Below, in pieces: positions 20,365-42,638 of a stretch of 43,319 bases of DNA; positions within the stretch are counted from its first letter, which is position 1; the number at the start of each line of letters is the position of its first letter. Under the pieces are notes generated by a model. That model was not told the origin of the DNA. It made no database searches and worked only from the letters and a program-made list of their open reading frames with translations. Source of the stretch: Cytophagales bacterium (lineage in GTDB: Bacteria > Bacteroidota > Bacteroidia > Cytophagales > CCMP332); NCBI GenBank assembly GCA_028279065.1, contig JANQSY010000063.1, positions 1-43,319 of the forward strand. Reading direction: 5' to 3'. Position numbers and translations under genes: made by a program.

Positions 20365-21678
20365 TTGAAAGTAGTAGTAGAAACTTCGAAACGACATTTT
20401 GATCAAAAGCATAAGACTCTGAATCTGTTCTTTGAACAGATCCTGGGTTGGAATCTTGAGATTGTGGAAATGGCAAATCCGGGATTCAAGATCAATTTCC
20501 CTTCAGGCTCAACCATTGAGACTCCTTCAAACTATTTTGATTCCAATGACCTTGGAATTGATAAAAGCCCGAGGGGTCCAGCTATAAAAGTTTCAACTCT
20601 TAGCCATGAATTGGTCTCCAGAGAGAAGCTCCACATCTTTTTTGGGGAACCAACCATGAGAGTTGTAGGGAAAAAGGCCGTACTGGGATGGGATCTTTTT
20701 GCCTGTATTTTTTTTATGGCCTTTAGAATTGAAGAGATCAACGATACAGATCCGGATGAACATGGCAGGTCCAGGCTTAAAAATAGTCTTGCCTACAGAG
20801 AGGGTTTTTATGGATATCCTCTCGTGAATGCCTTTGCTGATCTGGTAAAAAGTATCGCTTTGGGTTGGGAAGAGGATCTCCCAGGGCCAACCAGGAAATT
20901 TGAGGTTCAACCGACACTTGATATCGATCATCCGTTTAAATATGCCGGGATAAAGGGTAGCGCCAAGTTTCTTCGGGATGTATTGAAAGGGGAGCTAAGA
21001 AAAAGGGGAAATCTTGACCCCTACCTTGACAGGACGGTTCAGCTGATCACAGAATTGAATGAGATCGGATATGTTCCCCTGGTTTTTTTTCTCTTGGGGC
21101 CCTATGGCCCTAATGGTGGATTGGATCTAAGCACTAGAAAGAAACTCAATAAAGAGGTATTGAATTCTATCGCCGGCCTCGATTACATCCCTGGGATCCA
21201 TATTGGTTATTATGATTGGGAGAATTCAAGAGAGGGGATCAAGAAGGAAAAAGAGATCCTGGAGGAAATGCTAGACGAAAAGGTGTCTGCATCCCGTTAT
21301 CATTACCTGAGGTTTCGGTTCCCTCAAATGGTTGGGGACCTTAAACACGGTGGAATAGATAGAGATTTCTCCCTTGGTTATTCCAATGAACCCGGATTCA
21401 GGTCTGGGATCTGTCATCCTTATTTGTTGCAGGACCCAGCTGAGGGTTCAGGGGAGGTCATTTTGGAAACGCCATTGATCTTGATGGATAGAACAATGAT
21501 GAATAAGAGAGGAGATACGAGATACGAGGACCTGGTAAGAGCATTGCTAGAAGAGACCAAAAGATATGATGGAACCTTTTCAATGCTTCTCCACAATTCC
21601 ACCTTTGACGAGCCTGGCGGAATGGAAGTAAATGAATTGTTTTTAGAAATTTGTCGACAAGCTAAAGAAGAGGATTGA
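20365..21678 (+). CDS. DUF7033/polysaccharide-deacetylase-type protein of a sugar locus
   Basis: This 437-residue soluble protein resembles the flavobacterial proteins annotated as polysaccharide deacetylase family, with an N-terminal DUF7033 region (about 1-190: DLFACIFFMAFRIEE, DPDEHGRSR) and a NodB-like TIM-barrel C-half (about 195-435: TLDIDHPFKYAG, GIHIGYYDWEN, LRFRFPQ). The DIDHPF motif sits where NodB deacetylases place the metal-binding Asp. Enzyme activity is not proven by sequence. The start is TTG at 20365; no ATG upstream keeps the frame. Its stop overlaps the aminotransferase ATG by one base (TGATG), so the two are coupled and probably work on the same nucleotide sugar or glycan. 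Confidence 0.72.
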   Translation: MKVVVETSKRHFDQKHKTLNLFFEQILGWNLEIVEMANPGFKINFPSGSTIETPSNYFDSNDLGIDKSPRGPAIKVSTLSHELVSREKLHIFFGEPTMRVVGKKAVLGWDLFACIFFMAFRIEEINDTDPDEHGRSRLKNSLAYREGFYGYPLVNAFADLVKSIALGWEEDLPGPTRKFEVQPTLDIDHPFKYAGIKGSAKFLRDVLKGELRKRGNLDPYLDRTVQLITELNEIGYVPLVFFLLGPYGPNGGLDLSTRKKLNKEVLNSIAGLDYIPGIHIGYYDWENSREGIKKEKEILEEMLDEKVSASRYHYLRFRFPQMVGDLKHGGIDRDFSLGYSNEPGFRSGICHPYLLQDPAEGSGEVILETPLILMDRTMMNKRGDTRYEDLVRALLEETKRYDGTFSMLLHNSTFDEPGGMEVNELFLEICRQAKEED

Positions 21679-22796
21679 TGGAAAACATAAGAATGGTGGA
21701 TCTTGTCAGCCAGTACGAGAACATGAAAGAGGAGATCGATGCAGCCATGCAAAGAGTGGTCAGCGAGTCCAGGTTCATAAACGGACCCGATGTCAAAGAC
21801 TTCTCTGGTAATCTGTCATCATATCTTGGTGCAAAACATGTAATTCCATGTGCCAATGGAACTGACGCTCTTCAATTAGCCCTAATGGCTCTGGATCTTC
21901 CTGCGGGTTCTGAGGTTTTGGTCCCAAGCTTTAATTATGTGGCAGCTGCTGAAATGCTTCCAATATGTGGACTGGAGCCGGTTTTTTTTGATTCGAGGCC
22001 GGACACCTTTAATCTTGATGAAGATAAGATCGAGGATGCGATCTCCGAAAAGACCAGGGCAATAATTGTGGTCCATCTTTTTGGACAGGCCTGTGATATG
22101 GACAGGATCATGTCCATAGCTTCAAAAAGAGACCTTAAGGTCATTGAGGACAATGCGCAATCTATCGGATCTACTACAAATCTTTCAGGGGGAGATCAAA
22201 AATTTCTTGGAACCATCGGGGATATAGGAACTACTTCCTTTTTCCCATCGAAAAACCTCGGTTGCTATGGAGATGGGGGAGCGGTTTATACCCAGGATGA
22301 TGCTTTGGCTGAGAAGGTCCGGATGTTTGCAAATCATGGACAGGTGAAGAAGTATGAATATGATCTGATCGGGATCAATTCAAGGCTTGATACCTTGCAA
22401 GCGTCAATACTTAATGTGAAAATCAAGCGCCTGAACGGATATATTGAAGCAAGGAGAGGTGTTGCCGCATACTATGACGATCAATTGAAGGATCTGGATT
22501 GGCTTGAAACCCCCTACCGAAATGATTTTTCAAAACATGTTTTCCATCAATACACCTTAAGGATCAAGGGTGTAGAAAGGGATGCTCTAAAAGCATATTT
22601 AGAGAGCAAGGGAATTCCATCCATGATCTACTATCCAAAGCCCCTGCATCAAAATCCAGCATACTCCCATTACCGGACCATGGACTTGAAGGTCGCGGAT
22701 CAATTAAGCAATGAGGTGTTGTCTATACCTATGCACACTGAACTTGAGGAAAGTACCCTGGATTTTATATGTGAGACTATTAAGGATTTTAAATAG
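21678..22796 (+). CDS. DegT/DnrJ/EryC1 PLP-dependent sugar aminotransferase
   Basis: The 372-residue aminotransferase places an amino group on a keto-sugar nucleotide during surface glycan synthesis. PLP contacts are visible: the GTDALQLALM phosphate-binding helix, Asp158 in VIEDNAQSIG, and the Schiff-base Lys192 in FFPSKNLGCYGDGGA. The FFPSKNLG form and MIYYPKPLH near the C-terminus resemble 3-keto-sugar aminotransferases such as WbpE/WlbC types, which suggests a 3-amino sugar product. ATG 21678 is used instead of an in-frame TTG one codon earlier. It is coupled to the DUF7033 gene before it. A second, different aminotransferase lies at 36.8 kb. Confidence 0.92.
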   Translation: MENIRMVDLVSQYENMKEEIDAAMQRVVSESRFINGPDVKDFSGNLSSYLGAKHVIPCANGTDALQLALMALDLPAGSEVLVPSFNYVAAAEMLPICGLEPVFFDSRPDTFNLDEDKIEDAISEKTRAIIVVHLFGQACDMDRIMSIASKRDLKVIEDNAQSIGSTTNLSGGDQKFLGTIGDIGTTSFFPSKNLGCYGDGGAVYTQDDALAEKVRMFANHGQVKKYEYDLIGINSRLDTLQASILNVKIKRLNGYIEARRGVAAYYDDQLKDLDWLETPYRNDFSKHVFHQYTLRIKGVERDALKAYLESKGIPSMIYYPKPLHQNPAYSHYRTMDLKVADQLSNEVLSIPMHTELEESTLDFICETIKDFK

Positions 22797-22848
22797 TTTC
22801 AGTTTTTTTGCAGTTTTGGGTTATGATTAACCTGGACCTTTCACTGGC

Positions 22849-23892
22849 GTGCTCAAGTTTTTACAAAAAATAGCCGTTCTCCCTATTCTCTTTTCATGCT
22901 CTACCGATGTAGATGTATCGGCAGAATTCTACGAAACACCGGTTATTTATTCCATTATTGAACCCGGACAGGATTTCCAATATTTCAGAGTCCAAAAAGC
23001 ATTTTCTTCTGGTGCCAGTGGAAATGCAAACCAATTAATCAAAGATCCAAAAAACATCTACTATGACTCTGGAGAGATCGAGTTGAATTTTAAAATAAGC
23101 GACCCTGAAAATCCCGATCGCCCTTTGTTTGACTTCCCTCTGGTTTATAGTCGATGTGATACCTGCAAGGAATCGGGAGATTTTTATTATGATTACCTGC
23201 CTATATATCATACATACAGCTTCCTTCCAATCGACCCTGAAAGCGACAAGGCACTGGTCGCAGATCTATTGTTCAAAAACCTTGAAACCGGTCATGAGGC
23301 AAGAGCTTCAATAGGGTTGATCCCCTGCTTTGAGATAATAAGTCCGAGATGGGAGTGCTCGTATGAAAATTTTCAGCCAACCTTTCTTTTCGACAGCCTT
23401 GATATTCGATTGATAGGACCGGAATATGCCAAAGTGATCTCCGTGTTTATGGACGTAGTATATTTTGAGGTGCCGATCAATGGGTCGGAGTTTGAGGAAA
23501 GAACCACGGAACAGGAGCCATGGTTGGTAGTTGACCAATCCATTTTAAATCGAGACCCTGGATATGAGTATTCCTACAAGAGGGGATCCAACGAATTTGG
23601 GCAGTATCTTTATAGAGCAGTTGACACCAGCAATAACAAGGATATAGATTACAGGGTCATTCAAACAGCCGGTGTAGCCAGATTCAAATTTGTCCTATTT
23701 GACAATGAATATTATCAATATGACCTCTATACCAATAACGTCAGTGAATTACAAGTAAGCTTGGCCTTTACCAATATTCAGAATGGCCTTGGATTAATAG
23801 CTTCACAACTTATAAGGGAGATTCCGGCAATTACAATCGAAGTGGAAGACAAGACATATTGGGATCAATTCCCCAGCCTGAAACACTTTTAG
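22849..23892 (+). CDS. Outer-surface lipoprotein of unknown function, copy 1
   Basis: The 347-residue protein starts with a lipoprotein signal and lipobox Cys17 (LPILFSC). I do not recognise a characterised family. The opening DVSAEFYETPVIYSIIEP resembles Bacteroidota lipoproteins of the form FDVTAxYKE-VVYGLL. It is colinear with copy 2 (25714-26757): both are exactly 347 residues, and 60 of 75 residues are identical from LVYSRCDTC to the last Cys. Four Cys are shared (103, 106, 160, 170). The GTG start at 22849 is supported because the leader GATTAACCT...TGGC before the start codon is shared with copy 2. It runs head-on into a T9SS protein gene with six bases between. Confidence 0.85.
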   Translation: MLKFLQKIAVLPILFSCSTDVDVSAEFYETPVIYSIIEPGQDFQYFRVQKAFSSGASGNANQLIKDPKNIYYDSGEIELNFKISDPENPDRPLFDFPLVYSRCDTCKESGDFYYDYLPIYHTYSFLPIDPESDKALVADLLFKNLETGHEARASIGLIPCFEIISPRWECSYENFQPTFLFDSLDIRLIGPEYAKVISVFMDVVYFEVPINGSEFEERTTEQEPWLVVDQSILNRDPGYEYSYKRGSNEFGQYLYRAVDTSNNKDIDYRVIQTAGVARFKFVLFDNEYYQYDLYTNNVSELQVSLAFTNIQNGLGLIASQLIREIPAITIEVEDKTYWDQFPSLKHF

Positions 23893-23898
23893 ACAAAT

Positions 23899-25638
23899 CT
23901 ATTTTTTTACCACTTTAAGAATTTGGACAGCCATATTGGAATCTTGGACTTTTAAGAAATAGATCCCCGGTTCCACCTCATTTTTCATCAATAATTCATT
24001 GCAACTCTTCCCTTCTACTTCCTGGATGATCTGTCCATGGGATGAAATCAGTTGCACTGATACATACTCCATGGTTGACTGAAATTCAATATTGATTTCA
24101 TTTGTAAATGGGTTTGGGAAGGCCCTCACATTTTTCAATTGGTTTTTTGATTCGATTCCCAACGGGTCACTTATTTTTCGTAGGTATATATCACCATCGC
24201 CTAAAGATGTAAGCCTTCCCGAAGTCCCCGAAGGATCAAAATTTGCATTGAATGTAAAAACCCCTGCTTCGTAGATTTCTCCATTTGGCCCTATTGCAAC
24301 CGATGTGGGTTTCACTGCTCCATCTCCTCCTGCTCTTATCGCCCATATCAGATTTCCATTCGGTTTTACCTTCTCTAAAAAACCATCGCTAATTCCGGAA
24401 GCTGTAAGGTTATATAAGCCAGGCCCTGGATCAAAATCCACTGTTGAATAAAACCCACCAATAAGGTATAACATACCCCGATGATCCGAAGCAACGTTTG
24501 AAATTTCAGTAAGCTTGATACCTCCTATCTTAAAAGCACCCGAATATGAGAAAGATGAAGTTAGAGTGCTGACATAATTGTCACTTGTCCAGGGGTCAAA
24601 GTACTCACCCCTAATAACTTTTGTACCAGGACCGGGGTCGAAATCTACATCCAAATAAAACTTCCCAAAAGAAACAACCTGGTCCTGTTTTGAGAAGTAA
24701 ATCCCTGTTGGAGTCATTGGACTCCCTTCAAATTGGGCAAGACTTTGATAATTCCCAGCGGAATCCAAACGGAGGATATATGAAGTTTGCTCAGAACACT
24801 TTAGTGATAGAACACCAGGTCCGGGGTAAAGGTCTATCCTATATCCAAAAGCTTTGGTATTTCCAGCAATAAATATGTCTCCGGCATCATTGATGTCCAA
24901 AAAGCAGACGTGGTCACGGTCATAGCAGAAAACCGGGCAGGGGACCATATGGGGTGGACGAGGGATAATTCCAAATTCTTTAGCGAACAGGAAATCTCCA
25001 TTTTGATCAAACTTGGCAACAAACCGCTCATCAAGACCATTTGAAGAAATATTGTAAGAAGAGGGACCGGGATCGAAGTCTACAGTTCCTCTAAAATATC
25101 CAAGGAGATATGCATATCCATTTTGAGCTCCAATTCGATTTATGAAGTCCCTGTCTGGCCCTCCAATTCTTTTCAGCCATTCAAATCCACCGTTTTGATC
25201 AAATTTTGCAATGAACCCATCGCTTCTACCATTTGAACTAATTGAATCGTACCCTTGCCCGGAACCGAAGAAGGTTTTTCCTCTAAAGTTTCCTCCCAGG
25301 TAGATCATTCCCAAATTATCGGTGGCCATATCGGAAACCGAATCAAGGCTAGGCCCTCCAAAACTGGTTGCCCAGATCAGATTTCCGCTGGGATCATATT
25401 TTGCAAGAAACACATCATAACCCCCTCGAGAAACTAAATATTCTGAGGCAGGAGAAGGATCCGCATCGATGGTGTCACTAAAAACCCCTGTAATAAGGAT
25501 GTTTCCATTTAGATCGATCTTAATTATGGGATTGTTCAAACCTCTCTTACCACCTAGCTGGATGACCCACTCCAAAGAAGGGGCTTGAGCCAGTGCTTCA
25601 GCACAAAACAATATCAAAATGAACCTGAGAAATTGCAT
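23899..25638 (-). CDS. Secreted DFDPGPG/SBBP-type propeller protein with T9SS sorting domain, paralog 1
   Basis: The 579-residue exported protein has a signal peptide (MQFLRFILILFCAEALAQA) and then repeated blades of about 55-65 residues of the type FLAKYDPSGNLIWATSFGG...DFDPGPG, a beta-propeller-like array found in Bacteroidota surface proteins. A middle blade has LYPGPG and extra Cys. The last about 75 residues (VRAFPNPFTNEINIEF to ILKVVKK) form a type A T9SS C-terminal sorting domain, so it is moved through the outer membrane and probably anchored. ATG 25638 is chosen because a start at 25674 would put 12 odd residues before the signal peptide. It is convergent with lipoprotein copy 1, and related to the genes at 26.8 and 28.6 kb. 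Confidence 0.9.
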   Translation of the reverse strand: MQFLRFILILFCAEALAQAPSLEWVIQLGGKRGLNNPIIKIDLNGNILITGVFSDTIDADPSPASEYLVSRGGYDVFLAKYDPSGNLIWATSFGGPSLDSVSDMATDNLGMIYLGGNFRGKTFFGSGQGYDSISSNGRSDGFIAKFDQNGGFEWLKRIGGPDRDFINRIGAQNGYAYLLGYFRGTVDFDPGPSSYNISSNGLDERFVAKFDQNGDFLFAKEFGIIPRPPHMVPCPVFCYDRDHVCFLDINDAGDIFIAGNTKAFGYRIDLYPGPGVLSLKCSEQTSYILRLDSAGNYQSLAQFEGSPMTPTGIYFSKQDQVVSFGKFYLDVDFDPGPGTKVIRGEYFDPWTSDNYVSTLTSSFSYSGAFKIGGIKLTEISNVASDHRGMLYLIGGFYSTVDFDPGPGLYNLTASGISDGFLEKVKPNGNLIWAIRAGGDGAVKPTSVAIGPNGEIYEAGVFTFNANFDPSGTSGRLTSLGDGDIYLRKISDPLGIESKNQLKNVRAFPNPFTNEINIEFQSTMEYVSVQLISSHGQIIQEVEGKSCNELLMKNEVEPGIYFLKVQDSNMAVQILKVVKK

Positions 25639-25713
25639 ATTTGTGTTTCCAAAATTAAAAAAAAGTAACTTCACGAATTCAGGTCAGGATTAACCTACCA
25701 TTTGTCTAATGGC

Positions 25714-26757
25714 ATGCGGAAATACATATTCTTATTACTGCTCTTACCTTTCCTTATCAACTGCTCGACCGATTTTGATATCACTGCCGAGTTCTATGAA
25801 ACCCCTGTCATATATGGGGTGATCGAACCCAAGAAGGACTACCAATACTTCCGGGTCCAAAAGGCATTTGCTGCTACCAAGGATGGTAATGTATCCGAAA
25901 TGGTTCAGGATGCCGAGAACATCTACTATGATTCCGGAGAGATCGAGATCGTTTTAAAAGTCACCGATCCTGAAGAACCGGAAAGACCATATTATGATTT
26001 TCCATTGGTTTACAGCCGCTGCGATACCTGTAAACAAGCCGGAGAGTTCAATCATGATTATCTGCCACTTTACCATACTTACAGCTTTCTTCCGGTAGAT
26101 CATGAAAGCGATAGACCCCTGGTTGCCGACCTGTTTTTTACCAATCTGGAGACAGGACATGAAGCCAGGGCTTCAATTGGCTTGATCCCATGCTTTGAGG
26201 TGATCAATCCAAGGTGGCAATGCTCCTACAGGAATTCACTGCCGACATTTGTATTCGATAGCTTTGATATAAGGCTGATCGGTCCTGAATATGCCCGAAT
26301 CGTTACAATCTTTATGGAGGTACTTTATTTTGAGGTGCCTCTTCATGGAGGTGATATCATCGAGAAAACCACCCAGGATGAGCCCTGGCTTGTAGTGAAA
26401 AGAGAAGACCTTAGCAGGGATGCCGGATATGAATATTCTTTTAAACGAGGGCCTAAGGATTTTGGAAATTACCTGTATGAAGCCGTGGATACCAGCAATA
26501 ATAGCGAGATCGAATACAGGGTTATTGAGACCTCAGGTGTGGCTACATTCAAGTTTATCCTATACGATAATGAGTATTACCAATACGATCTGTATACCAA
26601 TAATTTGAGCGAATTACAGATCAGCCTGGCCTTCACCAATGTCCAGGACGGGCTTGGGGTTATGGCTTCTCAATTGGTAAGAGATGTCCCCGGGATCTCT
26701 ATACGTTTGAATGATCAGAATTATTGGGATGATTTTCCCAGCTTAAAGCATTTATAG
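25714..26757 (+). CDS. Outer-surface lipoprotein of unknown function, copy 2
   Basis: This is the paralog of the lipoprotein at 22849-23892, with the same length (347), the same lipobox position (Cys17, LPFLINC) and the same four Cys: Cys103/Cys106 in SRCDTC and Cys160/Cys170 in the IPCF...WQCSY stretch. The mature part is predicted beta-rich with acidic and aromatic patches (DNEYYQYDLYTNN). The ATG at 25714 is preferred over an in-frame TTG at 25702, since it lines up with copy 1 after the shared leader GATTAACCT...TGGC. It is convergent with the next propeller gene, with eight bases between stops. Function unknown; partnership with the neighbouring T9SS protein is inferred from the repeated arrangement. 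Confidence 0.87.
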   Translation: MRKYIFLLLLLPFLINCSTDFDITAEFYETPVIYGVIEPKKDYQYFRVQKAFAATKDGNVSEMVQDAENIYYDSGEIEIVLKVTDPEEPERPYYDFPLVYSRCDTCKQAGEFNHDYLPLYHTYSFLPVDHESDRPLVADLFFTNLETGHEARASIGLIPCFEVINPRWQCSYRNSLPTFVFDSFDIRLIGPEYARIVTIFMEVLYFEVPLHGGDIIEKTTQDEPWLVVKREDLSRDAGYEYSFKRGPKDFGNYLYEAVDTSNNSEIEYRVIETSGVATFKFILYDNEYYQYDLYTNNLSELQISLAFTNVQDGLGVMASQLVRDVPGISIRLNDQNYWDDFPSLKHL

Positions 26758-26765
26758 AGGGCTGT

Positions 26766-28514
26766 CTAATACTTGATGACCTTCTTTTGGATCGACCTCG
26801 AATTTTCAACCTTTATTCTTAGTAGGTAGATACCGGGTGGTCCCGGAATTTCCAATTGAAGTTCCTGATCTGGAGAGTAATGAAAGACTCCTTGAGTCTT
26901 GCCTTCCTTGGACAAGATTTCAATGGATACTGGATCATTAACATTTTCAATCTCTATCTTGATTTTTCCAGTTGTTGGGTTCGGATATACCCTACCTGAA
27001 GAAATCTTCTCTGGTTGAAGGTCGGAAATGATATTCGAATGCTTGGTTATGAATAACCCTGCTATGGTAGTATCCGCAGTAAGGGAATAGTTGGAACTAC
27101 CCGGGTCAAAATTTACCGTAGCCTGGAAAGTTCCAGAGGTGTAGATCGTCTCATTTGGCCCCAGGGCAATGGATTTTGCCCTGTCATCCAAACTGTCACC
27201 AAAGGATAGAACCCATCTCAGATCACCGTTTTGACTCATCTGGAAAACGAAAACATCTGTTGAATCTGCTTGAACCAAGGTTGTTTTTGGTCCAGGATTG
27301 AAATCACATAGGTCCTCAAATGTCCCGGCAAAATAAAGATTGCCCAAATCATCTGATGCAATGTCACTGGTTTCCAGAATGTTTGCCCCTGCAAATTGAA
27401 TAGCGCTAACGAAGTTCCTTTCTCTATCCAAAATGCTCAGGTAACTATCAATGCTGTAGTGAGGAATAGTGGGGTGGGGGCTAGGTGTCAATAAAAAAAA
27501 GCTGGTATTGGGATCAAAATCGACTACATCTGAAAAATGCCCTGTATATGCAATTTTTCCACCTACCAGTGAATGGTTTTGGGTGATATTGGCCCCTCCC
27601 TCAATTAGCGGAGCCCAGGCAAAGTTTCCGATTGAATCCAGCTTTAGGTGGAATATGCTGAAATAGGAACAATAATTTGAATATATCCCCTGACCCGGAT
27701 ATAGATCAATTCGGTATGCAACACAGTTTCCCGACACCAAAACTTCATCATTTGATGTCAGCGTGAAGTAGTTTTTTGAAGAAAAATCCGAATTGTTTTG
27801 AAAGTTACCTACGTGACCAAATTCCTTTGCATAGATCAGGTTTCCGGCGAAATCATATGCAAAAAGAACCCTGTCATCAGGGCCGTCTGAACTCAGGTTT
27901 AATTCTGAGGGGCCAAGATCAAAATCTACAGTTCCGGAAAATAGTCCAAAGAGATAGATCCTGTATTTCCCGATCTTTATATTCCTAGCACTGTCCCTAC
28001 CTGACCCTCCAATTATTTTGACCCAATTAAAATTTCCAGAGGGATTCAACGAAAGAATAAACATATCCTGACCCCCAGATGATGTTTTATTCGCTTCACC
28101 TGGTCCTGGGTCAAAGTCTATGGTCCCAACAAAGTGCCCTACAATATAGGCTTCCCCATTTTCTGTTAGATCAAAGTCAAATCCTTTGATCCCAGAAATT
28201 CCGCCAATATGTCTAGCCCAAACCAGATTACCTGATGGAGATATCTTTAAAAAGAGTAGGTCTGGCCTGGGATCCGCATTCCCAATAGAAATAAAATTCA
28301 AGGTTCCAGGTCCGGGATCAACGTCAAGTGTTCCATTGAATTCGCCCAACAGGTACACGTTTCCATCAGCATCCGATTTTATAATTGGATCAAGGCCAAG
28401 ATATGGGGATTGGCTACTGTTATCCACCGCAAAACTTATTGCCCATTCGAATGTGGGGTTTTGACCGAACGATAGGAATGGGAGAAAGAATGCTATAAGT
28501 AGCAGCTGCTTCAT
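26766..28514 (-). CDS. Secreted DFDPGPG/SBBP-type propeller protein with T9SS sorting domain, paralog 2
   Basis: The 582-residue paralog has a signal peptide (MKQLLLIAFFLPFLSFGQ), an array of propeller-like blades with VDFDPGPGE and VDFDLGPSE variants, and a T9SS type A C-terminal domain (GRVYPNPTTGKIKIEIEN to SIQKKVIKY). One central blade keeps YRIDLYPGQGIYSNYC, the same Cys-bearing variant as in both relatives. By eye it is closer to paralog 3 than to paralog 1 (shared PTPHP and FFLLTP segments). It meets lipoprotein copy 2 head-on. Probably a cell-surface or released adhesin or structural protein; no enzyme motif is seen. Confidence 0.9.
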   Translation of the reverse strand: MKQLLLIAFFLPFLSFGQNPTFEWAISFAVDNSSQSPYLGLDPIIKSDADGNVYLLGEFNGTLDVDPGPGTLNFISIGNADPRPDLLFLKISPSGNLVWARHIGGISGIKGFDFDLTENGEAYIVGHFVGTIDFDPGPGEANKTSSGGQDMFILSLNPSGNFNWVKIIGGSGRDSARNIKIGKYRIYLFGLFSGTVDFDLGPSELNLSSDGPDDRVLFAYDFAGNLIYAKEFGHVGNFQNNSDFSSKNYFTLTSNDEVLVSGNCVAYRIDLYPGQGIYSNYCSYFSIFHLKLDSIGNFAWAPLIEGGANITQNHSLVGGKIAYTGHFSDVVDFDPNTSFFLLTPSPHPTIPHYSIDSYLSILDRERNFVSAIQFAGANILETSDIASDDLGNLYFAGTFEDLCDFNPGPKTTLVQADSTDVFVFQMSQNGDLRWVLSFGDSLDDRAKSIALGPNETIYTSGTFQATVNFDPGSSNYSLTADTTIAGLFITKHSNIISDLQPEKISSGRVYPNPTTGKIKIEIENVNDPVSIEILSKEGKTQGVFHYSPDQELQLEIPGPPGIYLLRIKVENSRSIQKKVIKY

Positions 28515-28587: not shown

Positions 28588-30339
28588 CTACTCTCTGATA
28601 AGTTTGAACTGTTGAGTATTTTTTCCATCGGTCAGGAAGACAAAATACACTCCTGGAGGATGATTTAATTCTGTTTCTTCATTTTTCAATGGATCGATCC
28701 ACCTGGTTTCAAGATGTACCCCCTTGGATGAATAGATGCTCATATTTTGTGGGGAAGAAAGGTCTCCGAAATCGATATGAAATCGTCCTGAGGTAGGATT
28801 CGGATAGATCCTTAATGAAGAAGCCTCACTTTGGTCAATCCTTGAAATGGTCCCCGAATGTTTGGTAATGTAGAAACTGCCATTCTGGGTATTTCCGTTT
28901 AAGGTGAAATTGGAATTCCCTTTATCAAAATTCACGGCTCCCCGAAAAATTCCAGTGGTATAAACAGTACCATTGGGGCCCAATTCCAGGGAGATAGCTC
29001 TATCATCCCTTGCACCCCCGATTTGAAGTGACCAGTTAAGAGCCCCATTTGGACCATATTGGCATATGAATCCATCTATCGAGTCAGCGGTTAAGACGGA
29101 ATCAATGGGCCCAGGACTAAAATCACAAGACTCCGTAAAACTCCCGGCCAAATACTTGTTGCCTTGAACATCTTCTTCTATATCATTGATGTTCAAAATT
29201 TTATACTCACCTAGCTGGACTGCATTTTCTAAATTCCCATCCCTGTCCATAATGCAATAGTAACTATCCACACTGTATTGAAAGATCGGATGAGGGGTAG
29301 GAGTTAAAAGAAAAAAACCCGGATTTGGGTCAAAATCCACCTCAGAATAGAACTTTCCATAATAAGCAAACCGTCCGTTTTTTAGTGAGTTCTGTCCGAA
29401 CGTGAAGGGGTCACCGTGTCCTCTCCCAACGCCAAACTTGGTCCAGGCATAATTCCCAGCCGAATCCAGCTTTAAATTGAATACCCCAAAAAAGGAGCAA
29501 AGGTTTGAATACACACCTTGGCCTGGATAGAGGTCCATTCTATAGGTGTTGCACGTGCCAGAAATATATATCTCATCCCTTTCAGAAATGGACATGTAGT
29601 TTCGTGAATTAAAATCGCTTCCATTCATCAGGAATTCTGCATTCCCAAATTCCTTTGCAAAGATCAAGTTGCCATTGAAATCAAAGGCACAAATTGCTCT
29701 ATCATCAGGACCGATCGGGCTGCGGTTAAGGACGTTTGGCCCCGGATCAAAATCAACTGTACCAGTGAAAATGGAAAAGGTGTAGATCCCGTACTTTCCT
29801 GCCGCTATCCAAAACCCTCGATCTTGGTCGTCACCACCGATTTTATTCACCCAGCGAAAATTTCCCTGGGAATCAAGAGAAAGGATAAAAATATCATCTC
29901 CCTTGGAAGTTCGTTTTACCTCCCCAGGCCCAGGATCAAAATCCACTGTTCCAACAAAATAGCCTGTAACATATAATTCTCCGGTATTTGAAATATCAAA
30001 ATCCATTCCCTTTGCTAGGAATTGTCCCCCAATTGATTTGGCCCAGATCAAATTACCAGCGGGTGAGATCTTAATGAGAAAGATGTCCAGATCTGTTTGT
30101 CCAAATCCTAGTGCTGTTAAGTTGAAGGTTCCGGCGCCCGGATCCGCGTCTATTGTCCCTCTGAATCCTCCCATCAGATAGACATTTCCCAACTGATCGG
30201 TCTTGATCAAAGGTTCATTTATCAAAAGAGGATTATCGTTTTTGGCGTTGGTTTCAAACTTGATTGCCCATTCAAAATCCGGTTTTTTACCATGGATCGA
30301 AAATGGTAACATCAACAAAATCAGCAGCAAGGTCCTCAT
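28588..30339 (-). CDS. Secreted DFDPGPG/SBBP-type propeller protein with T9SS sorting domain, paralog 3
   Basis: The 583-residue paralog has a signal peptide (MRTLLLILLMLPFSIHG), blades with VDFDPGPGE, VDFDPGPN and CDFSPGP motifs, the central YRMDLYPGQGVYSNLC blade and a T9SS type A domain (LRIYPNPTSGRFHIDF to QQFKLIRE). ATG 30339 starts a clean signal peptide. An earlier in-frame ATG at 30363 begins with nearly the same codons (MRTL both times, 24 bases apart), as if the 5' end was locally duplicated. It lies in tandem behind paralog 2 (73 bases) and, unlike paralogs 1 and 2, has no lipoprotein gene facing it. Confidence 0.9.
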   Translation of the reverse strand: MRTLLLILLMLPFSIHGKKPDFEWAIKFETNAKNDNPLLINEPLIKTDQLGNVYLMGGFRGTIDADPGAGTFNLTALGFGQTDLDIFLIKISPAGNLIWAKSIGGQFLAKGMDFDISNTGELYVTGYFVGTVDFDPGPGEVKRTSKGDDIFILSLDSQGNFRWVNKIGGDDQDRGFWIAAGKYGIYTFSIFTGTVDFDPGPNVLNRSPIGPDDRAICAFDFNGNLIFAKEFGNAEFLMNGSDFNSRNYMSISERDEIYISGTCNTYRMDLYPGQGVYSNLCSFFGVFNLKLDSAGNYAWTKFGVGRGHGDPFTFGQNSLKNGRFAYYGKFYSEVDFDPNPGFFLLTPTPHPIFQYSVDSYYCIMDRDGNLENAVQLGEYKILNINDIEEDVQGNKYLAGSFTESCDFSPGPIDSVLTADSIDGFICQYGPNGALNWSLQIGGARDDRAISLELGPNGTVYTTGIFRGAVNFDKGNSNFTLNGNTQNGSFYITKHSGTISRIDQSEASSLRIYPNPTSGRFHIDFGDLSSPQNMSIYSSKGVHLETRWIDPLKNEETELNHPPGVYFVFLTDGKNTQQFKLIRE

Positions 30340-30433
30340 ATCAAGTTTTACCAGGGTCCGCATGTCTAGTTTTTCCTAAAACAAAGGACCTCCAATCAGG
30401 AAAAAGTTTCAATTATTTCTTTTTGCCATTTTT

Positions 30434-31309
30434 TCAGTAATGTAGAATGGCCGATTCCCTTAGCTTCCTGAAACCCTCGTAGATCTCATCCGCACCCATT
30501 TTCATGCAGAGATAATTGATCTTGCAGTCCACCCGGCCCCAGTCATAGCATGGTGCACAGGGAAGGTTTTTATCCAGGACTACTGACTTCTTATAAATGG
30601 GCCTATTCTTCAATATCGAGGTGCTTCCAAATACTATTACGGTAGGGATCTCCAATATATCGGCAAGGTGCATTACACCACTGTCGGTGCCTATGTAATA
30701 CTCGGCTTTGCAGAGCTCATTTTTTAGATCTGCCAGGGAAGGGGTTTGAATATGATTTCCCAATCCAAGGTCATGGTCAAGGGTACAGACCTTATACCCA
30801 TCTTTCTCCAACTTTCCTTTTAATTCTATCCAAGTGTTTTTTGGAACGGTCTTATGGGCCTTCGGGGAGATCCCAAAGATCACCTTTCCTTTTTCAGGGT
30901 CTTTTCCTTCCAGCCTGAATGGAATCTCTTTTAGGGTTTTTCCAAGGACATGATTGTAAAGGTCCAGGTTGTTATCGACCTCGCTTTTGCTTTCATTAAA
31001 TCTCAAGCTCTTATGGTATCCCAATCCTATATGCCTTCCTTTTATTCTGTACTTAAATCCTGCTATTCTGCCCTTATACTTTTTCAATTCGTCCCAAAAC
31101 CAGCTATGGTTATAGTGGAAGACCGTGAAGTAATAATCAGCTTTTTTGTCATTAGAATAGTTTGGGACCACGCCAAGGTCCCTCAAAATAGCGGAGTCGC
31201 TCCAAACCTCATATTCCTTTTGCAATTCCCTGATTACCGGAATGAACTGGATCTGGTTTCCCAGTCCACTTTTTTTTGCAAGGATCTTAACGGTTTTTCC
31301 TAATCTCAT
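30434..31309 (-). CDS. Glycosyltransferase family 9 (heptosyltransferase-like)
   Basis: The 291-residue protein has the two-domain GT-B shape of GT9 enzymes, which add sugars to lipopolysaccharide core or similar glycans from nucleotide sugars at the inner face of the membrane. The N-terminal KKSGLGNQIQFIPVIREL is the acceptor-side glycine loop. The donor-side motif is visible as YYIGTDSGVMHLADILEIPTV followed by VFGSTS, and the C-terminus has the usual Cys-rich CAPCYDWGRVDC. It is short for the family, in which about 330-350 residues are common. It diverges from the GT4 gene across about 100 bases and starts the glycan region. Confidence 0.88.
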   Translation of the reverse strand: MRLGKTVKILAKKSGLGNQIQFIPVIRELQKEYEVWSDSAILRDLGVVPNYSNDKKADYYFTVFHYNHSWFWDELKKYKGRIAGFKYRIKGRHIGLGYHKSLRFNESKSEVDNNLDLYNHVLGKTLKEIPFRLEGKDPEKGKVIFGISPKAHKTVPKNTWIELKGKLEKDGYKVCTLDHDLGLGNHIQTPSLADLKNELCKAEYYIGTDSGVMHLADILEIPTVIVFGSTSILKNRPIYKKSVVLDKNLPCAPCYDWGRVDCKINYLCMKMGADEIYEGFRKLRESAILHY

Positions 31310-31344
31310 CGTTAAGATTCAAAATCGATTTGTTTGGGATATGA

Positions 31345-31352
31345 TAACTTTG
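31345..31352 (+). promoter_or_regulatory. Possible Bacteroidota -7 box (TAACTTTG) before the GT4 gene
   Basis: TAACTTTG matches the Bacteroidota -7 consensus TAnnTTTG and lies 60 bases before the GTG start of the GT4 gene, in the divergent gap with the GT9 gene. No TTG at the ideal -33 distance is clear; a TTTG lies only 12 bases upstream. Weak evidence. Confidence 0.35.
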
Positions 31353-31412
31353 TCCGGCACGGCAATAACCCCTTCAAAAGGATTTCAGGAAGAAAAATTG
31401 AACATTTAATCT

Positions 31413-32714
31413 GTGGCCCATACCCAGGATTCAACAAGACTCTCAATTTTACTTTTTACCTATTACTGGCCTCCGGGAGGAGGTGCAGGGGTGCAAAGAT
31501 GGGTAAAGTTCGTAAAGTATCTGAGTCAGCAGGGGCATGAGATTCATGTGGTTACTCCAAAGGAGCCATCTGTTCCCTTTATGGACCATAGTCTAGAAAA
31601 AGAGGTCCCGAAAAACGTAATGGTTTACAAAACCAAAGCCATCGAGCCATTTGGTTTGTTCAATCTGTTGCGAGGAAGAAAGGGAAAGGGAATGAGCGCT
31701 GGAACCTCCGACCTAATGGGAGGGGGGGGCTTAAAAAGACTAGCCCTTTATATCCGGAGCAATTATTTTATTCCGGATGCCAGAAAAGGATGGAATCCAT
31801 ATGCCAGGAAAAAGGGGGAAGAGATCATAAAGGACAAAAAGATTGATGTGCTGATCACCACCGGTCCACCCCATAGCACCCACCTGATCGGCTTAGAATT
31901 AAAAAGGAAATTTGGCCTTCCCTGGCTGGCTGATTTTCGTGATCCCTGGACAACCATTTACTATTTGAAACTTTTCCCCTTGACAAATTCCTCCTGGAAG
32001 AAGCATCGAGAGCTGGAGAAAAAGGTTTTATCCGAAGCTGACCAGGTTGTTACTGTTTCCGAAAACATGAAAAGGGATCTTCAAAATGGAAATAGTGGCA
32101 TCAGGGTAATTTATAATGGATTTGACGAAGGGGATTTTCCCGAATCTGATTTCTCAGGCAAAGAAGATTCCAATAGATTGATAATGAGTTATATAGGAAA
32201 CTTCAAACCCAATCAGAATTTTCATGGTCTGGTTCAGATCTTAAAGAAAGCAATGGATAGAGTTCCTCAGCTTAAATTAAAGTTTGTAGGCCCCATAGAT
32301 AGGGGAGCCCGGGATGTCTTTCAGAGCGGTCTCGGAGAAAGAGTAGAGTTCATCGGCTCGGTCAGCCATACCAAGGCGGTTGAATACATGTTGAAGACAG
32401 ACATCCTTCTTTTTATTATTCCTCGGGGCCAGAATGAAAAGGGGATCATCACCGGAAAGATCTATGAGTACCTTGCCTCAAAAAAACCTATCCTGGCCAT
32501 TGGCCCGGAGGATGGTGACGCATCGAATATATTGGATCAGGTAGGTGTTTCTTTTCCAATGGTGGATTACTCAAATCATGAGAAAATACTGGACCTTATT
32601 GAAGATACATCGAAGTCCCCGGAACCTCTGCACTATCCTGGATTGGCTAAATTCTCAAGAAAGAATCTAAGCACCGAATTGTCTTCAGTTCTAAAAACTA
32701 TGGTCAATGGCTAG
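31413..32714 (+). CDS. Glycosyltransferase family 4 (GT-B)
   Basis: The 433-residue retaining glycosyltransferase has an N-terminal Rossmann half with the acceptor loop YYWPPGGGAGVQRW (about 17-30) and a C-terminal nucleotide-sugar half. The middle has LADFRDPW, and the donor site includes VIYNGFDEGDF, SYIGNFKPNQN, FVGPIDRG, RVEFIGSVSHTKAVEYM and GIITGKIYEYLASKKPILAIG, where the Glu in KIYEYLA is the GT4-type EX7E-like residue. The start is GTG at 31413. The 3' end overlaps the next gene by eight bases, so the two are probably co-translated. It likely adds a sugar in surface polysaccharide or LPS synthesis; donor unknown. Confidence 0.9.
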   Translation: MAHTQDSTRLSILLFTYYWPPGGGAGVQRWVKFVKYLSQQGHEIHVVTPKEPSVPFMDHSLEKEVPKNVMVYKTKAIEPFGLFNLLRGRKGKGMSAGTSDLMGGGGLKRLALYIRSNYFIPDARKGWNPYARKKGEEIIKDKKIDVLITTGPPHSTHLIGLELKRKFGLPWLADFRDPWTTIYYLKLFPLTNSSWKKHRELEKKVLSEADQVVTVSENMKRDLQNGNSGIRVIYNGFDEGDFPESDFSGKEDSNRLIMSYIGNFKPNQNFHGLVQILKKAMDRVPQLKLKFVGPIDRGARDVFQSGLGERVEFIGSVSHTKAVEYMLKTDILLFIIPRGQNEKGIITGKIYEYLASKKPILAIGPEDGDASNILDQVGVSFPMVDYSNHEKILDLIEDTSKSPEPLHYPGLAKFSRKNLSTELSSVLKTMVNG

Positions 32715-33813
32715 ACATAGAATTGACCTGAACGGATTTAAAAGGGATAAGGATTTCTATGGTAAGATCCCCCTGACCATTACCATAAAGAGCTTTGAAT
32801 TGCAGGAAATAAGGAAAAGGTACCTCGCCAGCAGAAAGAGAAAGGATGGGGTGACTGGAAGTGTTGAAAGAAGGGAACCCAGCCTTGGCGGTATTGCCGC
32901 TATGGAATTATCAAATGGTGGGATCACCAAAACAGAAATACTCAAGGAGATGAGAGAACCCAGGGGAATTGCCCTTAAGAATGGGGAGTTAGCGATATCC
33001 TCTGACAAGGTGGTTTACCTGATAAGAGAAAATGGAATGAGTTCCATTCAGGACCCCTGGTTCAGCTATATTCATACCCTTGATTTTCAACCGGAGACAA
33101 ACAGACTGCTGGTCTCCAGTTCTGGCCTCGATTGTATTTTTTTGGTAGATCCTGATTCGGGAGAAAAGGAATATGAGTGGTTTGCCTGGGAGAATGGCTT
33201 CCCAATAAGCAAGCAGAGGTCTGATGATGGAGGATCGATTTTTTTAACCAGAGATCCGGAAGAAGCCAAAAGGATCAAAGGAACCGGCAAAGAGGTGAGG
33301 TTGATCACTGACCCGCAAAAAGATCATCTGCCTACAGCGCAACGATCCGCATTTATTAATTCCGCCCTGTTTTCCGATCGGAATAAAGTCCTGTTGACCT
33401 TCTTTCATCTTGGTGAGGTTAAGCAATTGGATCTGGAAACGGGTGATTTGTCAGATATGATCAGTGACCTGAAGAATCCTCATGGTGGGAGGGTTTTTGA
33501 AAACTCTGTCATGGCTACCAGCACGGGGGAAGGGTTGGTTTCAAAGCTTGAGAAAGGGGTAAGGACTGATTTCGATTTTTCAAGCTTACCTGGAAAGCCG
33601 GATGAACTGAGAGATAGCGAATGGATTCAAAATTCGGCCACCTATCAGGACCTTATCATTTCTATCGATTCCAATAGGAATTCATTTGTAGTATTCGATC
33701 CTGTAAAGGAATTGATCGACCTTATTCCCTTTGATGAGAATTGGGCTTTGCAGGACTTGGTGTTAGGAGCCCCGGGAGAAACTATTGCAGATATTATTCG
33801 ATCCAGCGAATAA
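32707..33813 (+). CDS. Unknown protein, beta-propeller-like, coupled to the GT4 gene
   Basis: I do not recognise this 368-residue protein. It has no signal peptide or membrane helix. From about residue 60 it shows repeated short strands such as GIALKNGELAISS, LDFQPETNRLLVSS, VLLTFFHLGEVKQLDLETG and DLIISIDSNRNSFVVFDP, which read like propeller blades of the NHL/SMP-30/WD type. The N-terminal 50 residues are strongly basic (RHRIDLNGFKRDKDF, RKRYLASRKRKDG). The start overlaps the GT4 stop by eight bases, and its end overlaps the convergent PIG-L gene by 20 bases. Context points to glycan synthesis, either as a cytoplasmic partner or as a sugar-modifying enzyme; neither is shown. Confidence 0.75.
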   Translation: MARHRIDLNGFKRDKDFYGKIPLTITIKSFELQEIRKRYLASRKRKDGVTGSVERREPSLGGIAAMELSNGGITKTEILKEMREPRGIALKNGELAISSDKVVYLIRENGMSSIQDPWFSYIHTLDFQPETNRLLVSSSGLDCIFLVDPDSGEKEYEWFAWENGFPISKQRSDDGGSIFLTRDPEEAKRIKGTGKEVRLITDPQKDHLPTAQRSAFINSALFSDRNKVLLTFFHLGEVKQLDLETGDLSDMISDLKNPHGGRVFENSVMATSTGEGLVSKLEKGVRTDFDFSSLPGKPDELRDSEWIQNSATYQDLIISIDSNRNSFVVFDPVKELIDLIPFDENWALQDLVLGAPGETIADIIRSSE

Positions 33814-34420
33814 GTTCAAAGCCTTCGGCAAGCTCTGCTCCAGCTTGAACTCCTCTAAGCCTTGCTAAGCCCTTGATAAATTCCGGGTCAGAATAATTCT
33901 TTCCTTTTTGAGTCTGGTAGCAATGAATGGAACTGATCTTTTTTTCCAATTGATCTTGGGTGACCTTAGAAAAGTAACCATGGTGGAATTTTGGAGTGTT
34001 CCATGGAAGTTCATAACCCAATATTGAGGAATTCTTAAATGCCCTTACCCCTTCATCTGAAACAACTTTATGGTCTTGGTGAATATCGAAACTTGAAGGA
34101 AGGAGAACCAGATCAGGTTTTAAGGAGTTTCTTTGTTCGATCAGGATCTCAAGGATCTCCTGTCTGACTCCGGGAAATTCCCTAACCTCAAAATCAAAGG
34201 TATTCACTTTGCTTCCATCGATCCCCAAAATAGAAGCAGACTTTTCCAATTCCCTGTACAATTGGTTCTCCTCAAAGCCTTCAGGCATTGATCTGTTGCA
34301 GGGAGAAAAGGCAAAATACCATATATCATGACCCTGGGAGGCCAGCTTCGAGATAGTTGCTCCACAACCGAATTCAATATCGTCAGGATGCGGCGCTAAC
34401 GCCAGGATCTTCTTGCTCAT
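33794..34420 (-). CDS. PIG-L/LmbE-family N-acetyl-sugar deacetylase
   Basis: The 208-residue zinc enzyme has the LmbE fold: APHPDDIEFGCG gives His11 and Asp14 with the catalytic Asp13, and FDIHQDHKVV supplies His117 (with His114) as the third ligand. PIG-L enzymes remove acetyl from N-acetylglucosamine-type sugars. The C-terminus (GVQAGAELAEGFELIRW) is typical of members in polysaccharide clusters; I think it is not the bacillithiol enzyme BshB. It is the last gene of the run LegC-like, YfhO, PIG-L, and overlaps the YfhO gene by 38 bases. Confidence 0.88.
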   Translation of the reverse strand: MSKKILALAPHPDDIEFGCGATISKLASQGHDIWYFAFSPCNRSMPEGFEENQLYRELEKSASILGIDGSKVNTFDFEVREFPGVRQEILEILIEQRNSLKPDLVLLPSSFDIHQDHKVVSDEGVRAFKNSSILGYELPWNTPKFHHGYFSKVTQDQLEKKISSIHCYQTQKGKNYSDPEFIKGLARLRGVQAGAELAEGFELIRWIE

Positions 34421-36809
34421 CGTCTTTTTTCTTTTTGAATTCCACGAAAATAGCTCCTGCCAACAACAAATAGATCAAAATTGATCCCGTCAATCCGATC
34501 TGATTTCCTGTATGATAAGAGGAGGGTTCAAATTTGAATCTGATCTCATGGTCACCTGCAGGTACCTCCAATCCGCGGAGTACCCAGTTTACTCTTTTGA
34601 TCTCTACCTCATTCCCATCAATTGTTGCTGTCCATCCTTCAGGGTAATAGATCTCTGAAAAAACAGCGAAGCCATCGCTTGGATTTGAGGATTCGTAAAC
34701 CAGGTCATAAGGTTTATAGGATACAGGGTCAATTGAACCCCCGGGCTGGAAATTGTTTAAGTCTACACTGAATTTGCTCTCATCCATGATTGCCTCCCTT
34801 GAGGGATCAAAATTCCCAAGCTCTTCCATCTCCCTGTTTGGATTTTCAACCGTTTTGATCTTTTCGATAAACCAGGAATTTCCCAGAGCCCCTGGATTCC
34901 TTTGAACCGGGTTGTTCTTATCCCTGGTGATCACATACTTGGTATTTAGCATATTCAGTACCGATTGATTTCCCCTTCCAATATGCCTTTCTATGAGGTC
35001 CTGGTATCTCCTCATTTTAGTTCCATGATAACCACCTATACTTTTATGCCAAAAGGAGGTGGTGGCATCATTAAAGGTGTTGACTGCAAGATTGAGCACT
35101 CTGAAGTTGGGATCAGGGTCCTGAAGTATCATTTCATCAGCCTGGGATTTTGGAAACTGCTGTTCCAATTCCTGCTTCACAAAATTTTCCCCATTGAGAT
35201 ATCTCTTATCTACCAACCACAAATCAACCAGGATCAGCACACCAATCAGGGAAATTGAAACATTCAAGTTGGTTTTCCTCAGGCCCCAAAGTACCAGCAC
35301 GGCTAGGGCTGCCCCGGAAAAGAATAAGGTTCTCATCCAGTCCTTTTGAAAAAGGCTTTGGCGGTCCGAGATCATTGCGTTTAAAAGCTGTGGAGAATTC
35401 TCTCCCAGTGATTGATCCTGTGGTCCCCCTTCAAATGAAAATCCCTGTCCAACGAGGAAGACCAGGATTAGGAATCCAAAGTACCCTCCTGAGACTTTCC
35501 AGAATTTTTTATCCTTTAGCAACTCAATGGGACCCTCTTCGGAGAACACCTTGCCCAGGAACAAAGCTGCGCCCAGAGGAAAAACCAATTGAGCAATGCT
35601 CATGGCCATCATAGGGGTACGGAACTTGTCATATCCTGGAAGAAGGTCAAAAAGAAGATTATTGACCATCCCCAAGTTCTTTCCCCAGGAAAGGATTATT
35701 CCAAATCCAGCGGTTACGCCAAGGAACCAAGCCATACGTTTTGGCAGGTAGGCCAGAGATAAAACAAAAAGGAAAACTATGATTGCGCCGAAGTAGATCG
35801 AACCTGCTGTTGAAGGCAGGGGACCCCAATACATTAAGGATTGAGTATACTGCTCTGCGGTCTTCCTTCCATAGTTTCCCTTAATAATATCATAGGTATC
35901 CATGGACTTATATGGATAAACCGAACCAGACCCCCCTCCGGAGGCATTGGGGATCAGAAGGGATAGGGTTTCCTGTTTACCATAACTCCAAGCAAAAGCA
36001 TAATCCCTGTCTTTTTCCTTGGTCTGAACCTTATCGTTGACCAGTTCGGATCTTGCCCTGTTTGAATAATTTGAGTACTCCTGGACTGTAAGAAGTTTAC
36101 CCATGTTGGGCATAAGGCCCAACACACCAGAGGCTGCGAAAATGGCAATTATGACCCCGAGTTCCTTCCAGTCCTTTTCTTTTATAAGAGGGTAGACTTT
36201 AAATCCAAAAAAGATAAAGGCTACCAATGTGGAATAATAGGCGATCTGGTAATGACCTGATCCAATGATCAATGAGGCAGCAAAGGAAGTGACGGCCAAA
36301 CCTGCGATATGCTTTTTCCTGAATACTAGGTTCATCCCTGCAAAAAGCAAAGGCATCAAGCTCATGGCAAGGACCTTACTGTTATGACCCGCCTCCATGC
36401 TGACAATAGAAAAAGAAGTGAAAGCAAATGCAAGCGCACCGATCCCTGCAGGAATTGGTTTTAACCTGAAGGTCAGCAAGAGAACATAAAAACATATCAT
36501 TCCGATCAACATGGTATGGGCAGGAGATTCAAAGATCTTCCCCAGGGTAGAGAGGATCAGTTTATGTTTTTCACCATAATGAAGGGTTGATACCAGATAT
36601 GCTGGCATTCCTCCAAACATAGAGTTTGTCCATAAAGGCTCCTTGCCTTCCGATTCCCGAAACTTAAAAACCTCGGAAGAGCCCCCTTTCCATTGGATCT
36701 TATCATTTTGGAATAAATGTTCATCTCCAAGTACCGAAGGCTGAAAAAACACCGCCGTGAGAATTACAAAAACCAGTACTGGTAGATAAGGAAGATATTT
36801 GTTCGACAT
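34383..36809 (-). CDS. YfhO-family polytopic membrane protein
   Basis: The 808-residue protein has many transmembrane helices (roughly 12-14: one at about 6-24, a set between 95 and 245, a second group at 335-480, others near 495-540 and a last one near 775-795). A large extracytoplasmic region before the last helix contains VLNMLNTKYVI and YYPEGWTATIDG, both typical of YfhO proteins. In Firmicutes YfhO relatives help glycosylate lipoteichoic acid using lipid-linked sugars. In Bacteroidota the substrate is unknown, but a GT-C-like sugar transfer across the membrane is a fair inference. It starts eight bases after the aminotransferase stop and overlaps the deacetylase gene by 38 bases, so all three form one operon. 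Confidence 0.88.
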   Translation of the reverse strand: MSNKYLPYLPVLVFVILTAVFFQPSVLGDEHLFQNDKIQWKGGSSEVFKFRESEGKEPLWTNSMFGGMPAYLVSTLHYGEKHKLILSTLGKIFESPAHTMLIGMICFYVLLLTFRLKPIPAGIGALAFAFTSFSIVSMEAGHNSKVLAMSLMPLLFAGMNLVFRKKHIAGLAVTSFAASLIIGSGHYQIAYYSTLVAFIFFGFKVYPLIKEKDWKELGVIIAIFAASGVLGLMPNMGKLLTVQEYSNYSNRARSELVNDKVQTKEKDRDYAFAWSYGKQETLSLLIPNASGGGSGSVYPYKSMDTYDIIKGNYGRKTAEQYTQSLMYWGPLPSTAGSIYFGAIIVFLFVLSLAYLPKRMAWFLGVTAGFGIILSWGKNLGMVNNLLFDLLPGYDKFRTPMMAMSIAQLVFPLGAALFLGKVFSEEGPIELLKDKKFWKVSGGYFGFLILVFLVGQGFSFEGGPQDQSLGENSPQLLNAMISDRQSLFQKDWMRTLFFSGAALAVLVLWGLRKTNLNVSISLIGVLILVDLWLVDKRYLNGENFVKQELEQQFPKSQADEMILQDPDPNFRVLNLAVNTFNDATTSFWHKSIGGYHGTKMRRYQDLIERHIGRGNQSVLNMLNTKYVITRDKNNPVQRNPGALGNSWFIEKIKTVENPNREMEELGNFDPSREAIMDESKFSVDLNNFQPGGSIDPVSYKPYDLVYESSNPSDGFAVFSEIYYPEGWTATIDGNEVEIKRVNWVLRGLEVPAGDHEIRFKFEPSSYHTGNQIGLTGSILIYLLLAGAIFVEFKKKKDDEQEDPGVSAAS

Positions 36810-36817
36810 GTCTTTTT

Positions 36818-38020: not shown

Positions 38021-38050
38021 ATAGGGCTTATAGGCCTGTAAAATTAACTA

Positions 38051-38698
38051 ATGAATAAGGAAAATATTTTGTTGTTGGGGGCGGGTGGACATGCCCATTC
38101 CTGTTTTCACCTTGCAATGGAAACGGGGCAGGAGTTTGTAGGTTTTCTGGATGATGATCCAGGAAAAGAAGAAATGATGGGATTGAGGAACCTTGGTGAC
38201 CTATCGGAATTAGAAGAAGTTGAGTATTCTTCTTTCGTTTTGGGTCTGGGTGATCATGATAAAGGAAGGCTAAGGGTAAGATTATTTGATCAACTTCAGG
38301 GTATGGGAAAACAGATCCTGGGATTGATCTCCATTCACAGCAATTTTGCAGAGCAGGGTTATAAACTCAGGTCCAATCAGGTGTTTTATGGATCCATTTT
38401 TGGGGGTGGATGTATTATCGGGAACAATAATATCTTCAATCATGGGGCAATTATTGAACACCAATGCAAGATCGGATCACATTGTCATGTGGGATCTGGG
38501 GCAGTGATCGCCGGTGGGGCCATGATAGGGGATCAGGTCCTATTTGGTGCTAATTCTACCCTTATTCCCGGTATTGAGATCAATTCCGGCAGTATCATAG
38601 GAGCAGGTAGTGTGGTTACGAAGTCTATTCTTGAATCTGGGGGGATCTATGCTGGAAATCCTGCCAAAAAGATCGGAGAGTGGGATTACGAGATCTAG
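38051..38698 (+). CDS. NeuD/PglD-family left-handed beta-helix sugar acyltransferase
   Basis: The 215-residue protein has the NeuD/PglD layout. An N-terminal Rossmann-like part has the LLGAGGHAHSCFHLA nucleotide-sugar loop. A left-handed beta-helix from about residue 105 carries hexapeptide repeats (GGGCIIGNNNIFNHGAIIEHQCKIG), with the general-base His in the IEH turn (His137) and the acetyl-CoA site near AGNPAKKIG. Such enzymes N- or O-acetylate amino sugars, so it could act after the divergent LegC-type aminotransferase (31 bases apart). Its TAG stop shares the four bases CTAG with the clpP stop on the other strand. Confidence 0.92.
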   Translation: MNKENILLLGAGGHAHSCFHLAMETGQEFVGFLDDDPGKEEMMGLRNLGDLSELEEVEYSSFVLGLGDHDKGRLRVRLFDQLQGMGKQILGLISIHSNFAEQGYKLRSNQVFYGSIFGGGCIIGNNNIFNHGAIIEHQCKIGSHCHVGSGAVIAGGAMIGDQVLFGANSTLIPGIEINSGSIIGAGSVVTKSILESGGIYAGNPAKKIGEWDYEI

Positions 38699-42559: not shown

Positions 42560-42608
42560 GCCTATGTAGGTATTAAGAACTCAAGGTAATTTTTTTTTCT
42601 TATTCATG

Positions 42609-42638
42609 CCATAACATGAGGTTGTCTTTTTGTTATGG
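42609..42638. repeat. Inverted repeat in the gap before the small T9SS gene
   Basis: CCATAACA (42609-42616) and TGTTATGG (42631-42638) are perfect complements around 14 bases. The site lies about 50 bases upstream of the T9SS gene start (minus strand) and after the amidohydrolase gene. On the minus strand the hairpin is followed by A-rich, not T-rich, sequence, so it does not look like an intrinsic terminator. An operator is possible. Confidence 0.5.

Follow-up and report, generated by a model that had tools for sequence, protein, structure and literature searches.

Type A cargo of the T9SS is usually linked to a glycolipid, and genes for obligate partners are usually organized in operons. 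For type B cargo, the structural genes are often linked to genes coding for PorP/SprF-like shuttles (PMC12618676, PMC9143113). SprB/SprF and other type B pairs resemble the locus described here in that a T9SS cargo gene is linked to the gene for a surface partner. However, in our case the cargo is of type A, the partner is a lipoprotein and not a β-barrel, and the genes are convergent and not co-directional. Among lipoproteins, the DUF4249 protein BT2173 has been proposed to work with the neighboring TonB-dependent transporter BT2172 (PMC11003636), and a surface-export consensus, SDDFE, has been derived for lipoproteins of F. johnsoniae (PMC5080379).

Lipoprotein and Propeller Genes Face Each Other in the Window

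The window, i.e., the whole stretch of 43,319 nucleotides that was analyzed from the genome under study (G000), was compared with a congener (G001) and with a related genus (G002, one contig). Its relevant features are:

20365–21678, plus strand: VimE-like sugar deacetylase of a surface-glycan locus, scoring below the VimE cut-off
21675–22796, plus strand: DegT/DnrJ aminotransferase, left border of a variable slot, kept in G001 and G002
22825–22833, plus strand: leader GATTAACCT upstream of lipo1
22849–23892, plus strand: lipo1, lipoprotein of 347 amino acids with GTG start, lipobox LFSC, and mature N-terminus CSTDVD
23899–25674, minus strand: prop1, SBBP-type propeller with T9SS type A C-terminal domain, whose ortholog is the propeller on contig C412 of G001
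25688–25696, plus strand: leader GATTAACCT upstream of lipo2
25702–26757, plus strand: lipo2, 347 amino acids counted from the likely ATG at 25714, mature N-terminus CSTDFD
26766–28514, minus strand: prop2, SBBP-type propeller with about seven repeats and a T9SS type A C-terminal domain
28588–30363, minus strand: prop3, a sister of prop2 from the same propeller subfamily, without a lipoprotein partner of its own
30434–31309, minus strand: glycosyltransferase family 9 (GT9) gene, right border of the slot, kept in G001

An earlier reading of the sequence alone (the sequence-only reading) had placed lipo1, prop1, lipo2, and prop2 exactly, with regard to coordinates, strands, and the tail-to-tail gaps of 6 bp (lipo1/prop1) and 8 bp (lipo2/prop2). 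From the sequence, the likelier start of prop1 is an ATG near 25638. The same reading described one two-gene unit occurring twice. The layout does repeat, but prop3 had been missed, and prop1 is only about 33% identical to prop2 (prop1–prop3, 33%; prop2–prop3, 49%).

The lipoproteins are much closer to each other, with 231 of 347 residues identical (67%) in a gapless alignment when lipo2 is counted from the ATG at 25714. The best stretch of 75 residues contains 61 identities, in good agreement with the near-colinearity and the 60 of 75 claimed before. The common leader was also found where it had been proposed. Within the window, the 9 bases of GATTAACCT are found at these two sites and nowhere else, 15 and 17 bases 5′ of the aligned GTG and ATG starts. 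By chance, 0.49 copies are expected in the window and 7 of 100 shuffled sequences likewise contained two, so that as a bare 9-mer the leader is weak and its credibility comes from the matching position. Recent gene conversion between lipo1 and lipo2 was considered and ruled out, as identity at third positions is only 41% and identity along the gene varies no more than between 0.53 and 0.76.

The Propellers Are Predicted Type A Cargo

As the sequence-only reading had stated, the minus-strand genes encode T9SS proteins with DFDPGPG repeats. Their type A sorting domains (Por_Secre_tail, PF18962/TIGR04183) score above the curated cut-offs, with 30–36 bits versus 27 for Pfam and 32–36 versus 23 for TIGR04183. 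PF06739 (SBBP) exceeds its cut-off in prop1 only (29.6 bits) and stays below it in prop2 and prop3. The approximately seven DFDPGPG-type repeats of prop2 are spaced by 60–75 residues, and its confident structural model (pLDDT 82.4) is an SBBP-type propeller. CylK (7fh7), itself a propeller of the SBBP type, is the best PDB match of prop2 in both sequence and fold (TM 0.57 by query length, E 5e-14); however, CylK has an additional domain and catalyzes Friedel-Crafts alkylation, and no catalytic role is suggested here.

Regarding the secretion machinery, SprA/Sov is present in all three genomes of the family (G000, G001, G002), and PorU is full length in G000 and G002 and in pieces in the fragmented assembly of G001. 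In G000, SprA/Sov and PorU both exceed their cut-offs. By their sorting domains and the machinery of the genome, prop1, prop2, and prop3 are thus predicted T9SS type A cargo. They share the signal peptide, the DFDPGPG-type blades, and the type A C-terminal domain with T9SS type A cargo of the SBBP β-propeller kind but differ from it in belonging to a genus-restricted clade of five, three members of which face a lipoprotein gene. A cargo-immunity pair was also considered and dropped, since the family scan detected no toxin domain in the propellers.

The Lipoproteins Belong to an Old Bacteroidota Family

Lipo1 and lipo2 match no Pfam or NCBIfam family except for one chance-level hit, and they do not match PF14054 (DUF4249) at E-values up to 1. 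Both carry the lipobox cysteine followed by polar and acidic residues at positions +2 to +6 (CSTDxD), a predicted export signal. The lipoprotein was modeled as two β-sandwich domains (pLDDT 83.9), for which comparison with PDB structures gave generic β-sandwich matches alone (Z under 8, TM about 0.2) and no credible sequence relative.

A contig scan with the single lipoprotein sequence found no relative, but a search with a four-row alignment recovered 12 distant relatives in addition to the congener, which is Cytophagales bacterium PL24a_bin.2. Judged by sequence, the lipoproteins of the window are extra copies of an old, unnamed family that is mostly single copy and occurs in Cytophagales, Bacteroidales, Marinilabiliales, and Sphingobacteriales; 18 of 390 genomes sampled from the order contain it (E 1e-6). 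DUF4249 is matched by 12 of 28 family members (best E 1.2e-8), which suggests a distant relationship only. Both groups consist of Bacteroidota proteins, such as BT2173 in the case of DUF4249. In contrast, the pair in the window lacks a match, and the neighbors of the family are dnaK or T9SS propellers and not TonB receptors. A mature N-terminus C-S-T-[DE]-x-[DE] is present in nearly all 28 members, and the CSTDxD form resembles, but does not equal, the SDDFE of F. johnsoniae (PMC5080379).

Members of the family are frequently encoded immediately 5′ of dnaK, with no propeller gene beside them. G000 has such a dnaK-linked copy (contig C59, 39% identical) in addition to those of the window, and so does the congener. 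The lipoprotein gene lies directly 5′ of dnaK across orders (L036:1230-2294, L039:8321-9415, L046:7341-8384, and L084:7944-8966), a linkage that is conserved. Family loci are often divergent from what we take to be panB or, in the taxonomic family of the window genome, lie between presumed nqrE and dnaK genes; the names dnaK, panB, nqrE, WecB, and tryptophanyl-tRNA synthetase in the compared loci are our assignments by sequence recognition and not by family scan. In another group, the lipoprotein gene precedes that of a small membrane protein. The frame of the dnaK-linked lipoprotein of genome G004 (L043:6844-7419) is broken by a stop, leaving an open frame of 191 amino acids beyond which the profile match continues. 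A further divergent copy in G001 (L014:1155-2192) lacks CSTDxD and adjoins a gene that presumably encodes tryptophanyl-tRNA synthetase.

Pairs and Unpaired Copies in Relatives

The pairing was compared in two genomes of the genus, G000 and G001. It recurs in G001 at another locus, on contig C375, where a lipoprotein and a propeller of the same subfamily, both predicted surface proteins, are encoded convergently with a gap of 14 bp. Convergent pairs with propellers of this subfamily were found in this genus alone, at two places that are not orthologous, i.e., the window and C375, and the G000 contig carrying the flank genes of C375 has no lipoprotein-propeller pair beside them. At the family loci that were read outside the genus, no propeller of this subfamily is placed tail to tail with a lipoprotein gene; at one of them (L044), a co-directional gene two genes 3′ of the lipoprotein encodes a protein that scores weakly against the propeller profile.

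The three paired lipoproteins (lipo1, lipo2, and that of C375) form one clade (support 100/99), and the paired propellers all fall inside the clade of five (100/98). Among 390 genomes of the order, those of this genus were the only ones in which members of the clade were detected. The propeller/sorting-domain profile has roughly 80–90 matches per genome, many of which cover just the sorting domain.

In G001, contig C412 is syntenic with the window and comprises GT9, one propeller, and DegT without a lipoprotein, and only 3 bp separate the propeller and DegT genes, leaving no room for a decayed lipoprotein gene. At the collinear locus of G002, VimE-like, DegT, WecB-like, and GT4 genes are present and neither a propeller nor a lipoprotein. 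Slot content thus differs by relative: G002 has a WecB-like gene, G001 a single propeller gene, and the window five genes. Another lipoprotein copy of G001 is located on a 3-kb contig (C145) that has no propeller. The sequence-only reading would have counted unlinked partners against itself, and this is the situation of the C412 propeller and of most lipoproteins in the family. Judged from these genomes, the linkage looks non-random but not obligatory.

A Possible Surface Partnership and Its Alternatives

We consider it the leading possibility, with a probability of roughly 0.45, that the secreted propeller has the lipoprotein as its lipid-anchored partner exposed at the surface, encoded in a variable surface-glycan slot to which genes were added piecemeal. 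The slot between DegT and GT9 would have been filled in this lineage by genus-specific T9SS β-propellers and by additional copies of a lipoprotein of the outer membrane that is itself old. The lipoprotein might be flipped to the cell surface, its two β-sandwich domains might bind the secreted propeller, hold it, or bind a ligand shared with it, and the propeller would gain a lipid-anchored partner besides its glycolipid linkage. Such a partnership is favored because the paired lipoproteins form one clade and the paired propellers one subfamily despite 80–90 profile matches per genome, because each of the two species of the genus has the pair, at places that are not orthologous, and because the conserved N-terminus close to SDDFE, the DUF4249 matches, the two-sandwich model, and the presence of a T9SS are all consistent with it. 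On the other hand, the C412 propeller and prop3 lack a lipoprotein of their own, the C145 lipoprotein lacks a propeller, and convergent neighbors, unlike genes of an operon, are not co-transcribed. In addition, the linkages in the window and on C375 are not proven to be independent, as one old linkage that moved could explain both.

The chief alternative, which we regard as quite possible, is that the genes are plain neighbors without any physical partnership of their products, because genes for surface proteins gather in a variable surface-glycan slot where butted ends are the local norm. The different slot genes of each relative, the existence of unpaired lipoproteins and propellers, and the tightness of convergent junctions in the window, six out of eight of which measure between −20 and +8 bp, are in line with this explanation. 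However, plain neighborhood does not readily account for the C375 pair, which combines the same two subfamilies at a different locus.

If the pairing is functional, type A cargo would have a cognate partner in a lipoprotein, comparable to the SprF-like shuttles of type B cargo. It would also suggest a role for the widespread but unnamed family of lipoproteins whose gene directly precedes dnaK in many Bacteroidota. The broader proposal that DUF4249-like surface lipoproteins were recruited as dedicated lipid-anchored partners of type A propeller cargo, with new tail-to-tail pairs formed repeatedly, would describe a pairing unlike PorP/SprF or glycolipid anchoring alone; we judge it unlikely.

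It is quite improbable that the lipoprotein is dedicated to shuttling its propeller for secretion or anchoring, as PorP/SprF does for type B cargo. Genes for type B cargo and for SprF-like shuttles are indeed commonly linked (PMC12618676, PMC9143113), but type A cargo relies on PorV as a common shuttle (PMC12618676), the lipoprotein is modeled as a β-sandwich and not as a β-barrel, and the linkage is convergent and not an operon. PorP/SprF-like shuttle pairs are the nearest known logic, by likeness only, and the present pairs do not belong among them.

Gene Histories and Convergent Ends

The sequence-only reading had proposed a tandem duplication of the whole two-gene cassette, which is favored by the layout, the equal lengths of the lipoproteins, and the common leader. 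The gene trees of the partners disagree with each other, however. Lipo1 and lipo2 are sisters (100/99), but prop1 groups with the C412 propeller (100/99) and prop2 with prop3 (100/100). In AU tests, a clade of prop1, prop2, and prop3 was rejected (p 0.010), a clade of prop1 and prop2 more strongly so (p 4.9e-5), and a grouping of lipo1 or lipo2 with the C375 lipoprotein was rejected as well (p < 0.001). The C375 propeller may be placed with prop2 and prop3 (p 0.16) or with prop1 and the C412 propeller (p 0.20). From these topologies and tests it follows that the split between prop1 and prop2 is older than the species split and, provided that the C375 lipoprotein is orthologous to lipo1 and lipo2, that the split between these two is younger. 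In addition, DNA similarity between lipo1 and lipo2 ends at the stop codon, and the syntenic locus of G001 has a propeller without a lipoprotein. Block duplication is thus contradicted, unless propellers were swapped by recombination afterward, and we hold it to be very improbable. Instead, the trees indicate that lipoprotein copies joined propellers piecemeal and not via block copying; a repeated gene-pair layout need not reflect a duplicated block.

Least probable of all is that regulation by antisense transcripts from overlapping 3′ ends, the link suggested earlier, is the reason why the tail-to-tail layout was retained. Gaps of 6–14 bp do leave little room for terminators between the genes, but such tight facing ends are ordinary in the window, given its six of eight junctions, and the DegT and propeller genes of G001 abut likewise (3 bp).

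The Surrounding Surface-Glycan Locus

The segments 20365–22796 and 30434–38698 constitute a surface-glycan locus with genes for the VimE-like deacetylase, two DegT proteins, GT9, GT4, a PIG-L deacetylase, a YfhO membrane protein, and a PglD-like acyltransferase. VimE is assigned to the pathway of the sugar that links T9SS cargo (PMC7468200), so that the location of T9SS cargo genes inside this locus may be more than chance, with a VimE match that is below cut-off. At the right end of the window (42080–43319), there are short frames on the minus strand.
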